From Fodinicurvata sp. EGI_FJ10296 (GTDB lineage Bacteria; Pseudomonadota; Alphaproteobacteria; DSM-16000; Inquilinaceae), in the NCBI RefSeq assembly GCF_040712075.1, contig NZ_JBFCVL010000001.1, positions 69,501-133,500 on the forward strand: a DNA stretch of 64,000 bases, in the 5' to 3' direction. The notes beneath the pieces are model-generated. The model made no database searches. It saw nothing but the letters and a program-made list of their open reading frames with translations, and was not told the DNA's origin. This document shows positions 19,197 through 23,831 of the stretch, in pieces; position 1 is the first letter of the stretch; each line of letters opens with the position of its first letter. Position numbers and translations under genes: made by a program.

Positions 19197-19379
19197 TTAT
19201 TGCGCCTGTGGGGCCTGAGGCGTCTGGGGGGGATGTTCGTGATACCAGGCATCGATCGCCTCGTAGCAGGCCCGTGCCACGAGATCGGGCGAGCAGCCGG
19301 CATCGACGGCTTCCTGACAGATCTCATGGAGGTCGGCGGCTACGGCCGGAATGATCAGTTCGGACGGCGTATCACGCAT
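19197..19379 (-). CDS. 60-residue hypothetical protein, last gene of the fibre-locus run
   Basis: MRDTPSELIIPAVAADL begins a mostly helical chain with HEICQEAVDAGCSPDLVARACYEAIDAWYHEH and a PQTPQAPQAQ tail. Start ATG 19379 lies behind TTGAGGGGTTTGAAA and overlaps the stop of the receiver-like gene by 8 bases, a sign of coupling. There is no recognised family. Its length and pairing suggest a small partner of the receiver protein. Confidence 0.55.
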   Translation of the reverse strand: MRDTPSELIIPAVAADLHEICQEAVDAGCSPDLVARACYEAIDAWYHEHPPQTPQAPQAQ

Positions 19380-19938
19380 TTTCAAACCCCTCAATGGTCC
19401 TTCCCGGGGTTCTGTCCGGCCCGGTCGGGACCGGCACCCCTTGTTCTGTTACGCAACGTCGGTGGCCGCCACGTCGTTCGACCCACTCTGTTGGATGGAC
19501 CGGTTCGGCCGCGAAATCAATGAACCTTTCGAACAGGTAAGCTGTTCGAAGGGGCTTCGTCCATGTCTCGACCGACCAATCGCCATACCTCCGGGCGCGC
19601 AATGCTGCGACCTTAAGGGCTGGCGTATCGACGCCGGCAACGATGACCAGGCGCCGAACCGTACCGGCGGCGTGCAGGACGGGCAACAGATCGACCGCGT
19701 CGCGGCACGGCATGTGCACATTCGTTATAACCGTGCCGGGGCGATAGACGTCCAGCACCATGGCAAGCCGTTCCGACCGGGTCAGAGCGGCGAGGTCGAC
19801 CCCGGCCGCGACCGCCACGGCGTCGACATAGCGCGCGAAATGGTCGTTGTCATCGAGAAAGACGATCGACCGGCCGCCGCGTCCCGGGCATGGGTCGGCA
19901 AGGGCACGATCCGGCAAAAGCCAATCGACGAATGTCAT
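19372..19938 (-). CDS. receiver-domain protein lacking the phospho-acceptor Asp
   Basis: Residues 24-135 of 188 follow the CheY layout: hydrophobic strand then acidic pair (SIVFLDDN, Asp29-Asp30), VITNVHMP where the acceptor aspartate should be but Asn73 stands, VIVAGV, and WTKPL with the conserved Lys128-Pro129. There is no output domain; the C-terminal 50 residues are Arg/Pro/Gly-rich. It begins 43 bases after the N/Q/S/T-rich exported protein and overlaps the 60-residue gene. A phosphorylation-independent signalling or adaptor role is inference. Confidence 0.65.
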   Translation of the reverse strand: MTFVDWLLPDRALADPCPGRGGRSIVFLDDNDHFARYVDAVAVAAGVDLAALTRSERLAMVLDVYRPGTVITNVHMPCRDAVDLLPVLHAAGTVRRLVIVAGVDTPALKVAALRARRYGDWSVETWTKPLRTAYLFERFIDFAAEPVHPTEWVERRGGHRRCVTEQGVPVPTGPDRTPGRTIEGFENA

Positions 19939-19981
19939 GGCGGCGATGCCGTTTGCGGGTGGGGCCCGAAACAGACGGGCC

Positions 19982-20488
19982 CTAATCCGCCTTCTCGGAG
20001 AACCAGTCTTTTCCCTGATAACGGTCGCCGCCTTCGGCCCCGATATTGGTGTCGGCGCTGCTTTCGGACTGGGTTTCGCTGTTCACCGCGACCTCGGTAT
20101 TCGCCGCCGACCCCTGGTTGCCGTCGCTCAACTGGTCCGTTGTCTGATGAACCGTTCCGACTGATCCGTCAGACAAATTCTGCGTAATCTCGTTCAGATT
20201 GCCGACGGAGGTCGACGAACTGTTATAGGTATAATTATTGACGTACTGCTCCAGCGCCCCCTGTGCGCCGCTGCCACCGCCGCCATTGCGTTCCGCCTGC
20301 CGTTCGGCATGCTGGAATTGCGCGGCCATGCTGCGGTTGCGCTGGGACGGCGCCCAGGGCCGCTTGCCCATCTGCTGGGCCTCGGCCGACTGGACCGACA
20401 ACGGCCCCGGCAGATTTCCGGCTTCCATTCCCAGTGTGACGGCGGCGATCGCGCAGAAGGCGGCCGAAAGAACGATGTAGCGCTTCAT
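19982..20488 (-). CDS. small N/Q/S/T-rich exported protein, putative amyloid subunit (HfaA-like)
   Basis: 168 residues: signal peptide through about residue 38 (AQSAEAQ-type cleavage), a basic Q/R/A-rich linker (42-68), a glycine run, then a polar segment 81-150 rich in Asn, Gln, Ser and Thr. That segment has NNYTYNSSSTSVGNLNE and two echoing units, ITQNLSDGSVG (101-111) and TTDQLSDGNQG (116-126). Composition and units resemble curlin and holdfast-anchor HfaA-type subunits. ATG 20488 follows GGAGGTTTTTC, a strong site. It lies downstream of the CsgG-like gene, as expected for secreted fibre cargo. Confidence 0.65.
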   Translation of the reverse strand: MKRYIVLSAAFCAIAAVTLGMEAGNLPGPLSVQSAEAQQMGKRPWAPSQRNRSMAAQFQHAERQAERNGGGGSGAQGALEQYVNNYTYNSSSTSVGNLNEITQNLSDGSVGTVHQTTDQLSDGNQGSAANTEVAVNSETQSESSADTNIGAEGGDRYQGKDWFSEKAD

Positions 20489-20533
20489 GAAAAACCTCCA
20501 TGTGCGGCTTGCGCTGACGGCTTTGGCGGTGGG

Positions 20534-20584
20534 CGGATGGCCATACGGGGTGGGCGAACCCACCCCGCAGGCTCCCGCCATCCG
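20534..20584 (-). promoter_or_regulatory. two-tier stem-loop between the two exported-protein genes
   Basis: CGGGGTGGG (20546-20554) and CCCACCCCG (20559-20567) pair perfectly around the tetraloop CGAA. An outer 7-bp stem joins CGGATGG (20534-20540) to CCATCCG (20578-20584). It sits in the 147-base gap between the 381- and 168-residue genes. No T-run follows, so partial termination, processing or mRNA stabilisation of the downstream cistron is more likely than full termination. Confidence 0.55.
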
Positions 20585-20635
20585 ATAAAAGCCGCATATC
20601 GAATGGTGGATGGCAGAGCGTCAGTCGTTGACGCC

Positions 20636-21781
20636 TCAGTTGTCGCCGGTCGGGTCGATATCGCCGACGGTGATGCTGATCGACTTGTTGTTGCCAACCG
20701 CCGTGGCGACGGAATTCACGATCGGACGATCGAGGTTGCCGAGGTTGGTGTAGTTGTGCAGCCAGACATCGTCGACGTTTGACTCGGCATCGACATTCGC
20801 CAGGGCGAACTGGGTGACGTCGCCGATCAGCGCACTGGAATCTTCAGCCATCATTTCACCGCTGAAGTTGTTGGCGACCGCCGTCGCCGCGCTGTCAACC
20901 GAAGAGTTCAGAACGTCGTCGACATCGGACTCCGCTTCGACCTCTGAATGCTCAAGCAGATCGAGGAGTGTGGCCGACGTTGCCAGACCCGAGATGACCA
21001 GACCCGAATTCAGGCTGTTCAACTGGCTATAGACACCGGTCAGCGCTTCTGCGTCGTCTTTGGCGTCCTCGTCGATGTAGCCGGGCACGTCAAAGGCGAA
21101 TTGACCTTCGTGCAGCAGGATGCCGCCGCCGTCATGAGTGTCAGTGAATTCGGCATCGACGCTGGCATTGTTGGCGATGGCTGTCGCCGCACTGACGGTT
21201 TCTGGCAGTTCGGCTCCGGCGCCGAGAGCCTCCAACGGAACAACGTCGCCGATCTCGAACTCGGAGAGGTCGACAGCAACCACAAAGGTATTGCCATCGT
21301 TTGTGCATTCGGTGTCATTCGGGCCGGTATCCGAACACTGCAGCGTAGTTTCAGTCTCGCCACTAACGAGGCTGACACCATCGTTCGTGAACTTCAGCTT
21401 TGCTCCGCCGGTGATGGTTTCATCCCCGTGCCACTGAAAGTCGAAATCGCCATACGCATCCCAATCGACAGCGAACTCAATGATTCCAGGATCGCCCTCT
21501 CCCTCGCCCATGGGCTGGTTGTTCTCGACGTCGGAGACTTTGGATTCCGCATCGACGGAGCCGACGAAGATCTGCAGGTCCTCAACCATGCCGAGATTGT
21601 CGAGTTCGGTTGGATCGAACTCGTTGTTGAAGCTCCAGTCCAGATCGACGTTGGTGGTGACCTCGGCGTCCCATCCCCAGCCCACCTCATCGAAGGCAGT
21701 GGCCGGGGCGGCGGCGAGGGCCAGGCCCAGGGCGGCGACGGAGGCGCCGGCGAGCATTCCGAGCTTTTTCGTGCGTCTCAT
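20636..21781 (-). CDS. repeat-bearing exported acidic protein, putative fibre or anchor component (HfaD-like)
   Basis: 381 residues with a clear signal peptide (cleavage near AAPATA-FD, residue 29). The mature protein is very acidic. It has two repeat families: VDAESKVSDV, VEAESDVDDV, VDAESNVDDV (about 76-85, 281-290, 330-339), and SAATAIANNAS, SAATAVANNFS, SVATAVGNNKS (197-207, 297-307, 357-367). The last two copies come as paired units. Such alternating short strands with NN turns fit stacked beta structure. It starts 3 bases after the CsgG-like stop, with AGGAGA upstream. The HfaD comparison is by position and style, not alignment. Confidence 0.65.
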   Translation of the reverse strand: MRRTKKLGMLAGASVAALGLALAAAPATAFDEVGWGWDAEVTTNVDLDWSFNNEFDPTELDNLGMVEDLQIFVGSVDAESKVSDVENNQPMGEGEGDPGIIEFAVDWDAYGDFDFQWHGDETITGGAKLKFTNDGVSLVSGETETTLQCSDTGPNDTECTNDGNTFVVAVDLSEFEIGDVVPLEALGAGAELPETVSAATAIANNASVDAEFTDTHDGGGILLHEGQFAFDVPGYIDEDAKDDAEALTGVYSQLNSLNSGLVISGLATSATLLDLLEHSEVEAESDVDDVLNSSVDSAATAVANNFSGEMMAEDSSALIGDVTQFALANVDAESNVDDVWLHNYTNLGNLDRPIVNSVATAVGNNKSISITVGDIDPTGDN

Positions 21782-21784
21782 ATC

Positions 21785-22618
21785 TCAGTTCTCCTGTGGA
21801 CGATTGCGATCAAGGGTCTCGCTAAAGAACTCGGTCTCTGCCAGTTCGCATTCGGGACTGGACGGGAGGCCGAGGAAGTCCGTCATGATCTGATGGGTGG
21901 CCATCTCCACGACGGACCGCACGCCGAGTTGAAGCGGTTCGTTTTCGATACGACCCGCATCGAACTCCACGAGTTGGTCTCCGAAGAATCGGAAGACGTT
22001 GCCTTCGACTTCGTAGCCGGCAATCTGCTTCTGCAGCGTCGTGACGTACGGAACGTCGAAGGTGATCGGATTCACGACCCTGAGGTCGAGGCCGACATTG
22101 ATGATGACCGAGCGCCCGCCGAACCCGGCGCCGCCGACATAAAGTCCGGCGCCCTGGCTGACGATGTTGTAGTTGAGCTCGGTCAGGGCGCCGAGGACGA
22201 CGAAATTGGCCGGCCTGACGGTGGGACCCTGGGGATAGGTGCGCGGCATGATGCCCTGGCGGACCATTTCCCGGTCAGCCAGCGGGATGCGCAGGTCGAA
22301 GCGCTCGACCAGATTGACCTTGCCGGTCTCCCACAGGGCGCTCATGACCATTTCGGTCACGCCCTGGGTCAGCACCATGCTGTCGCTTTCCATATCGCGC
22401 TGGCCCGTCTTGTCCAGGATCTCTCCGACCGTAAAGGTGGGAAGGTTCTCACCCGGCAATTCCGACAGTTGCGCCAGACACTCGGTATAGGGTGTGTAGT
22501 TCGACGTTACCGGGAAGCTGTAAGACGGCTCGTGACCATTGGAATCAGTGGCAACGGTGGCGGCGCATCCGGTAAGTGTCGTCGCTGCAAGCAGCGATGC
22601 GGCTATAGTCGTTTTCAT
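21785..22618 (-). CDS. CsgG/HfaB-family outer-membrane secretion lipoprotein
   Basis: 277 residues, the same length as E. coli CsgG. A lipoprotein signal ends in LTGC (Cys18). Downstream come GEILDKTGQ, a VTEMVMSALWETGKVNLVERFDL segment, ANFVVLGALTELNYN, INVGLDLRVVNPITF, YEVEGNVFRFF and NEPLQLGVRSVVEMA. The last three line up with CsgG's LRVVN, VFRF and NEP...SAIE elements. The family forms a nonameric outer-membrane channel exporting amyloid subunits. ATG 22618 follows AGAGGTC. It heads the run of exported proteins; no CsgE or CsgF homologue is seen. Confidence 0.85.
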   Translation of the reverse strand: MKTTIAASLLAATTLTGCAATVATDSNGHEPSYSFPVTSNYTPYTECLAQLSELPGENLPTFTVGEILDKTGQRDMESDSMVLTQGVTEMVMSALWETGKVNLVERFDLRIPLADREMVRQGIMPRTYPQGPTVRPANFVVLGALTELNYNIVSQGAGLYVGGAGFGGRSVIINVGLDLRVVNPITFDVPYVTTLQKQIAGYEVEGNVFRFFGDQLVEFDAGRIENEPLQLGVRSVVEMATHQIMTDFLGLPSSPECELAETEFFSETLDRNRPQEN

Positions 22619-22820
22619 AATGACCTCTGTGCGGCTTTTCCAGAGATTTATTGCTGTCACTCACCGCACAAGACTATGAAAATGCGTCACTGTTGTATAT
22701 TGGTATATCGGATCATTTATATTTCAGCAGGATAAAAGCAACTTTCCAATTTTTCCTTCTAATGAATATTATTCACTACATCAGGCGACTCTGTTTATCC
22801 GAAAGTCGCGCGCCGGCCAT
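22619..22820. promoter_or_regulatory. AT-rich leader upstream of the CsgG-like gene
   Basis: About 200 bases with strikingly low GC and a near-palindrome GTATATTGGTATATC around 22696-22711. This is the only sizeable space in which a promoter for the CsgG-like operon could lie. I could not settle on a single convincing -35/-10 pair. Confidence 0.4.
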
Positions 22821-22984
22821 TGCCCGGAAATGAAGGGCGGAATCGAAAACGGACCGTCGGCGGGCGCCGACAGTCCGTTCCAGTTGACTTCTGCGATGTT
22901 CGGGATTGGACTCTCTTGGCGGGCGGCGCAGGACCAAGCCCTCTGCCAGAAGCTCACCCGAGCAGCGTCGCAAGGAATTCGCTT

Positions 22985-23032
22985 GCCCCGGACGCGATGC
23001 AGCACGAAGTGATGCTTCGCCGAGCCGGGGCC
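22985..23032. repeat. palindromic intergenic repeat with CACGAAGTG core
   Basis: GCCCCGG at the left end pairs with CCGGGGC at the right, and an inner stem flanks CACGAAGTG. The same core and layout recur at 29992-30036 and 46363-46410, so this is one copy of a dispersed REP-like family. Confidence 0.6.
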
Positions 23033-23043
23033 ACACTATCATC

Positions 23044-23135
23044 GCTCTCGCGGGGCGTGTGGACCCCGGATGTCGCTTCGCCCCTTCGGGGATGAAATAG
23101 GGGGCGGATGCTGTGTCGAGAAACACAGTTGCCCG
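23044..23135 (-). repeat. inverted copy of the ~99-base intergenic repeat
   Basis: Read on the minus strand this segment matches 29854-29952 and 30092-30190: GGCAACTGTGTTT, then CAGCATCCGCCCCCTAT, a CCCC hairpin, and GGGGTCCACACG. The central hairpin differs most (GGGGCGAAGCGAC in place of AAGCACGAAGTGCTG). It lies between the CsgD-like regulator and the CsgG-like gene. Confidence 0.75.
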
Positions 23136-23150
23136 TTCGATGTCGTGCCG

Positions 23151-23831
23151 TCAGTGGGTGCTGGGCTCCAGCGGTGCGTCTGAACACACACCATGGGTAA
23201 GTCCCCAGATCGCGGCTTCGGTCCGGTTGGAGACCTTAACCTTGCGCAGCAGGTTCTTCAGGTGAAACTTCACCGTTGCCTCGGGCAGGGAAAGCCTGTG
23301 CGCAATCACCTTGTTCGGCTGTCCCTGAACCAGGCATTGCAGGATCTGCAGTTCCTTTTCCGACAGACCGGCCTGATCGGCAGCCGTCCCGTCGACGAAA
23401 CGGTTCGACCCCTTGAAGGTCGTCACCAGAAAATCCGCCAATTCCGTCGGAAATACCACCTCGCCGGCCTTGACCAGTTCCAGCGACAGGTTCAGAGCAT
23501 CGAGCGAAATGTCCGGCAGCACCAGAGCACGCGCGCCAGCCTGCAGAGCGCTTATCAGCGTTCTGGGATCGAGCTGGTCGGTCAATGCAACGATGCGATA
23601 ATCACCCATTGCCTTCAGTTTGTGTATCCCGTCGAGAAAATCGTCATCATCGGCAAACCATTCGACCAGGATGAATGCATCGTGCGTATTCATTTCTCCG
23701 AGCTTTGGCAATACTGATGACAAATTCGCTCCTTCGAGAACGACCGAAAACGGTGCGCCCTCAAAAAGACTCCGCATCCCCTCACGGAACAATCTGCTCC
23801 TGTTGATTAGAATGATATTTGATTCAGTCAT
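23151..23831 (-). CDS. LuxR/FixJ-type regulator with atypical receiver (CsgD-like)
   Basis: 226 residues. The N-terminal 1-130 has a receiver-like fold without its active site: the first acidic pair is replaced (IILINRS) and the acceptor position reads ILVEWF (about Glu57). Residues 156-211 are a complete LuxR HTH: LSEKELQILQCLVQGQPNK, then VIAHRLSLPEATVKFHLKNL and KVKVSNRTEAAIWGL. Length, architecture and missing phospho-site resemble E. coli CsgD (216 aa), master regulator of curli. It lies just upstream of the CsgG-like operon in the same direction, so control of that operon is a reasonable inference. Confidence 0.85.
   Translation of the reverse strand: MTESNIILINRSRLFREGMRSLFEGAPFSVVLEGANLSSVLPKLGEMNTHDAFILVEWFADDDDFLDGIHKLKAMGDYRIVALTDQLDPRTLISALQAGARALVLPDISLDALNLSLELVKAGEVVFPTELADFLVTTFKGSNRFVDGTAADQAGLSEKELQILQCLVQGQPNKVIAHRLSLPEATVKFHLKNLLRKVKVSNRTEAAIWGLTHGVCSDAPLEPSTH

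Follow-up and report, generated by a model that had tools for sequence, protein, structure and literature searches.

The described systems closest to the locus analyzed here are the holdfast anchor of Caulobacter, in which HfaABD anchors the holdfast polysaccharide (PMC6707917), and the curli of E. coli (CsgDEFG-BAC); alphaproteobacterial curli systems without several csg genes have also been reported, in an account that leaves HfaB unmentioned (Dueholm et al., PMC3521004). We analyzed 64 kb of the alphaproteobacterium Fodinicurvata sp. EGI_FJ10296 (contig NZ_JBFCVL010000001.1, positions 69,501 to 133,500; this whole stretch is hereafter the window), in which the minus strand at 19200-23831 carries, head to tail, genes for a regulator, an exporter, two cargo proteins, and a receiver-like protein, and an open reading frame (ORF) of 60 amino acids (aa). 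An earlier note, made from the sequence alone, had proposed a surface-fiber locus here with a regulator, a CsgG-family lipoprotein, a repeat protein, and an N/Q/S/T-rich protein. All four are present, and to them we add the second receiver-like protein, the 60-aa ORF, and further copies of the module elsewhere in the genome. Because the gene set recurs in the same genome and in other lineages, it is more than a chance arrangement. The locus is probably one of several HfaB-type export modules, in which a pore of CsgG fold would export both cargo proteins to build an adhesive surface anchor or fiber without helpers like CsgE and CsgF. The module is apparently a distinct, undescribed branch of the HfaB/CsgG kind of adhesin export; a search of the open-access literature, which is not the whole literature and in which "HfaB" was swamped by FABP papers, found no description of it.

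Results

The exporter belongs to the PF03783 superfamily. It scores 87.5 bits (1e-24) against Pfam CsgG, for which the curated cut-off is 20.8, carries an LTGC lipobox, and matches CsgG structures in the PDB by sequence (6e-13). The first PDB fold match of its predicted structure, a low-confidence model with a mean predicted local distance difference test score (pLDDT) of 52.5, is CsgG 4uv2 (Foldseek 3.4e-12, probability 1.00). As the earlier note had supposed, the protein falls in the CsgG/HfaB family, and it is nearer to HfaB (NCBIfam, 144.8 bits, 2.6e-42) than to CsgG (45.9 bits, 4.9e-12). In a tree of 45 rows, the exporter type and all HfaB proteins split from CsgG with support 96/99, and canonical, OmpA-fused, and phage HfaB split from the exporter type on a long branch (100/100); the exporter type stands as one side of a branch in 17% of bootstrap trees, and its status as a single clade is thus unsettled. 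The exporter lies outside the canonical HfaB clade, and the gene order is B-D-A rather than hfaA-hfaB-hfaD. In an alignment with the CsgG structures, a shorter and different sequence stands where CsgG has FKPYPASNF. The genome has no match to CsgE (PF10627) or CsgF (PF10614), the absence that the earlier note had predicted, and none to curlin repeats (PF07012); the E. coli control was positive for all three.

Both cargo proteins carry signal peptides, and they are as first described, the one with repeats and the other rich in N/Q/S/T. The gene for the 381-aa protein is separated from the exporter gene by 3 bases. Its product has three ATAxxNN units, whose key positions rank with the best-conserved of a 15-row family alignment (Q70, Q227, Q324, S80, V287, V336, A201, A301, N204, N304, and N364 are conserved), and the threefold repeat is like HfaD in style. 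No relative of this family was found in viral contigs. In the 168-aa protein the N/Q/S/T fraction past the signal peptide is 0.39, compared with 0.24 for its two neighbors. A profile of its family (15 members) matched 12 canonical HfaA sequences with an hhalign probability of 94.1% (E 1.2e-7 for the single comparison) and 0.2% in reversed controls, the match spanning only the C-terminal ~40 residues (SVGNLNEI...GTV..TTDQ..DGNQ). On the strength of this profile match, the 168 family is related to HfaA at the level of a motif. The HfaA profile was built in three versions: four sequences gave 54%, the cleaned twelve-sequence set gave the figure used here, and an iterated set (97.6%) was dropped because a 1701-aa fused frame contaminated it. 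Two family members, at L021 and L079, were missed by the first profile and added by place and eye, and so lean on synteny.

The regulator has a clear GerE domain (1.1e-18) and only a sub-threshold receiver match (Response_reg, 0.0086). In comparison with NarL, the window copy has Glu in place of the phospho-acceptor Asp ("ILVEW"), three paralogues have Glu or Asn there, and the acidic pair of receiver strand 1 is broken, supporting the earlier view of a receiver that looks non-phosphorylatable. The accompanying claim of CsgD-type control is not established, since NarL outscores CsgD: the best full-length relative is NarL (101.9 bits over residues 4-210), and the CsgD family profile reaches 62.4 bits, against a cut-off of 250, over residues 117-210 only. 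The regulator is thus of NarL type. Its linkage to the module is consistent. All 11 complete chromosomal module loci (window, L006, L007, L021, and L074-L080) have a window-type LuxR match (E up to 1e-5) no more than about 4 kb away from the exporter. These loci were retrieved via exporter or cargo and not via LuxR; three of them come from one genome, leaving nine lineages. The same match is found at 0 of 23 comparison hfa loci (19 canonical and 4 OmpA-fused; L082-L104), scanned over 6-12 kb, as against 11-20 kb for the module loci and 64 kb for the window. At the three module loci of the Fodinicurvata genome lie 5 of its 15 GerE matches. The synteny check that the earlier note had called for therefore finds the module conserved with its LuxR gene across lineages. 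Beside LuxR genes at four loci there is also a small family of predicted exported proteins with an NNxPY-like start (L006 17692-18204, L078 6132-6611, L079 9056-9571, and L080 8778-9308, all on the plus strand), which shows a weak echo of the N-terminal half of HfaA (hhalign 25.8%).

All five CsgG-family genes of the genome are of the window exporter type, and they are accompanied by six cargo pairs. A second module locus (C1:317400) has one exporter, its own LuxR gene, a cargo pair, and a receiver-like gene; a third (C1:459738-468867) has three exporters, four cargo pairs, three LuxR genes, and one receiver-like gene. Identity to the window copies within the genome is 79-86% for the exporters, 42-46% for the 381 family, and 52-60% for the 168 family. 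The uniformity of the exporters extends to silent positions. Pooled over all ten pairs, and thus independently of the choice of pair, agreement at fourfold-degenerate sites is 34% in codons 1-60, where composition predicts 39%, and 67%, 76%, and 79% in codons 60-130, 130-200, and 200-278; against the exporters of other genomes the same four segments give 29, 43, 45, and 54%. In copies 6a and 6d, the body agrees at 113/120 fourfold sites, the first 60 codons at 10/25, and the adjacent 381-type gene at 56/115 (Fisher p 3e-9 and 9e-16, values that are descriptive, since the segments were set after protein alignment and the pair was chosen after all ten). The likeliest explanation, judged from these patterns, is that the exporter body has been homogenized by exchange between exporter genes, that is, by gene conversion.

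At 13 of 14 loci the region between the cargo genes contains a strong hairpin (p 0.0025-0.035 per locus, by comparison with 400 random windows drawn from that locus, in a test designed after the folds had been seen and leaving out L074, L076, and L081). Paralogues within a single genome account for six of the 14; counted by lineage, eight of nine pass, two of the eight being Vibrionaceae plasmids. Across lineages the place of the hairpin is kept and its sequence is not (window; L006, L007, L021, L075, L077-L079, L105, and L106). The failing locus, L080, folds into a long stem with a larger loop, and the scoring limited loops to 9. No Rfam family matches the stem-loop. Because a short T run follows some of the hairpins and not most, a leaky terminator and an element of RNA stability or processing are both possible. 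In addition, the core AAGCCGC(A/G)CAGAGG precedes the start codon of all five exporter genes of the genome; five shuffled sets gave no shared words, and exporters of other genomes showed no such sequence ahead of them. A leader-like sequence also stands before the 168-aa gene of the window (20489-20510, minus strand), and each of the genome's six 381-168 intergenic regions contains, unchanged, GCGGCTT, which is complementary to 7 bases of the leader.

The module type was not found in 16 other sampled genomes of the same family; a CsgG-family gene is present in one of them and falls with CsgG of E. coli in the tree. Of 385 genomes of the class, only the source genome and eight more have the 381 family, which in each of the eight adjoins an HfaB-like gene (in G385, only a contig-end fragment of one); the 168-family gene is recognized there by profile in five (L075, L077, L078, L080, and L081) and by place in L079. 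Tianweitania sediminis has an exporter and 381-type cargo, with a 168-type gene by place. In four relatives (L075, L078, L080, and L081) the gene after the 168-family member encodes a protein that is Sel1/TPR-like in appearance. Further matches to the exporter, at 49-55%, lie in five plasmid records of Vibrio alginolyticus and in one of Photobacterium ganghwense. Downstream genes were scored in the latter and in one of the five from V. alginolyticus, and match the 381 family (3e-56 and 8e-47) and the 168 family (5e-15 and 9e-15). On these plasmids the exporter and both cargo genes occupy L105 6974-8987 and L106 6932-8864, and a neighbor of the Vibrio copy resembles, by eye, a phage tail-tube protein. 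A csgG variant of V. alginolyticus appears in PMC13391905 and could be either the plasmid gene or a different one.

Two further settings of HfaB came to light. At L088-L091 an HfaB variant with a C-terminal OmpA-like domain (seen by eye in L088 and L089) forms its own clade in the tree. In jumbo phages of Brevundimonas and Caulobacter, an hfaB-like gene is preceded by a small gene and followed by a larger one (L119 3339-5944; L120 3341-5705), and the larger genes match the HfaD profile.

Table 1. Features of the module locus, in window coordinates
Feature	Position	Strand	Basis
LuxR/NarL-type regulator, 226 aa, degenerate (pseudo-)receiver and GerE helix-turn-helix	23151-23831	-	Pfam and NarL comparison
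Leader AAGCCGCACAGAGGTCATT, directly 5' of the hfaB-like start codon	22619-22637	-	Core common to all five own copies
HfaB/CsgG-family outer-membrane lipoprotein, 277 aa, lipobox LTGC, ATG at 22618	21785-22618	-	Pfam, NCBIfam, tree, Foldseek
Predicted exported acidic repeat protein, 381 aa, HfaD-like by place and repeat pattern	20636-21781	-	15-row alignment
ATAxxNN units of the 381-aa protein	about 21167-21187, 20867-20887, 20687-20707	-	Three units
GC-rich 11-bp stem-loop separating both cargo genes	20544-20569	-	Fold kept in place across loci
Predicted exported N/Q/S/T-rich protein, 168 aa, HfaA-like	19982-20488	-	hhalign to canonical HfaA
Motif of the 168-aa protein common to HfaA	about 20102-20221	-	hhalign
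Receiver-like protein, 188 aa, two paralogues in the genome (L006, L007)	19372-19938	-	Response_reg 0.0057, below cut-off; paralogue alignment
60-aa ORF that overlaps the receiver-like gene at its end; possibly not a gene	19200-19379	-	No known family

Discussion

Beyond family membership, linkage, and sequence patterns, what can be said of this module is inference. By analogy with the known systems, the HfaB-like lipoprotein would form an outer-membrane pore of CsgG fold and would pass the HfaD-like 381-aa protein and the HfaA-like 168-aa protein to the cell surface. Both may then remain there and jointly build an adhesive anchor or fiber, with no CsgE- or CsgF-like helpers taking part. The neighboring LuxR protein could control the module without phosphorylation, gene conversion could keep the exporter copies uniform, and the intergenic stem-loop could fix the proportion of one cargo protein to the other. 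Several results weigh against this reading. The exporter falls short of the 300-bit cut-off of the HfaB equivalog (NF037935), which 19 of the 385 genomes of the class pass, the source genome not among them. The cargo had been described as of HfaABD type, and this stands for the 168-aa protein with its HfaA motif; the 381-aa protein resembles HfaD only by its position and the pattern of its repeats, and its family matches HfaD weakly (hhalign 12.7, 8.2, and 7.3% for three profile versions, compared with 0.1-0.4% reversed), so that its homology to HfaD is suggestive only. A structure prediction of the 381-aa protein from a two-sequence alignment was discarded at pLDDT 28. No 168-family match was found at L074 or L076, despite the exporter and 381-type cargo there, and no window-type LuxR gene was found at the plasmid loci L105-L107.

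Other readings of the locus can be set against the same evidence. It is possible, though we would not expect it, that the module is a true holdfast anchor, tethering an adhesive polysaccharide as HfaABD does in Caulobacter and making no protein fiber of its own: HfaB is the nearest named exporter family, the 168-aa protein has an HfaA-type motif, and the role of HfaABD in anchoring the holdfast polysaccharide is documented (PMC6707917), but canonical HfaB lies across a long branch, the gene order differs, six cargo pairs exceed the need of one polar anchor, and one genome (G054) has the module type beside an OmpA-fused HfaB. A curli-type amyloid, with the 168-aa protein as subunit, the 381-aa protein as nucleator, and the LuxR protein as the equivalent of CsgD, appears improbable. 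The CsgG-family pore, the Q/N repeats of the cargo, and the adjoining LuxR gene with a degenerate receiver would all suit it, yet curlin repeats, CsgE, and CsgF are all absent from the genome, the exporter is closer to HfaB and has a shorter, different stretch in place of FKPYPASNF, and the regulator is best matched by NarL.

Since the plasmid loci carry exporter and cargo without a LuxR gene, that gene is not part of the module core, and it could be a mere traveling neighbor of an adhesin cassette under other control. The absence of the module type from the 16 other sampled genomes of the family also fits such a cassette. We nevertheless consider this unlikely, given a LuxR gene at every complete chromosomal locus and at none of the other hfa loci, and given that one third of the genome's GerE matches fall at module loci. 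Doubtful to a similar degree is an origin of the exporter uniformity in selection at the protein or nucleotide level, or in a recent duplication of exporters only, instead of gene conversion. Good conservation of the exporter is also seen between genomes, and the segments were set after seeing the protein alignment and the strongest pair picked after all ten; the pooled silent-site agreement, however, is low in codons 1-60 and high in the body, where it exceeds that between genomes, and the 6a-6d pair shows the same break against both its first codons and the adjacent cargo. A bolder proposal, that the module represents a separate secretion-assembly class, in which interchangeable, conversion-uniform HfaB-type exporters, diversifying cargo pairs, a LuxR pseudo-receiver, a ratio-setting stem-loop, and spread between alphaproteobacteria and Vibrionaceae plasmids together furnish a repertoire of alternative adhesins, is speculative and in our estimate rather unlikely.

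These results suggest that HfaB-type export extends beyond canonical hfaABD loci, to at least one additional branch whose cargo, regulator link, and mobility are its own. With five near-identical exporters and six cargo pairs that diverge, a single genome also offers a direct test case for pore-cargo recognition. With the OmpA-fused HfaB loci (L088-L091) and the jumbo-phage hfaB loci (L119 and L120), the module shares an exporter of the HfaB family and flanking exported proteins; those exporters, in contrast, group with canonical HfaB in the tree, and no window-type LuxR was found at L088-L091. E. coli curli resemble the module in their CsgG-family pore, adjoining LuxR-type regulator, and Q/N-repeat cargo, and differ from it in possessing CsgE, CsgF, and the curlin repeat; in the module the regulator is nearest NarL, with a degenerate receiver, and the exporter is nearer HfaB. 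Compared with Caulobacter HfaABD, the module has the order B-D-A in place of A-B-D, an exporter that scores under the HfaB cut-off and falls outside the canonical clade, a LuxR neighbor, five exporters with six cargo pairs, and a 381-aa protein whose HfaD match is weak, whereas the two systems have in common an HfaB-family lipoprotein, a small protein bearing the C-terminal motif of HfaA, another protein that is larger and has repeats, and an arrangement that dispenses with CsgE and CsgF.

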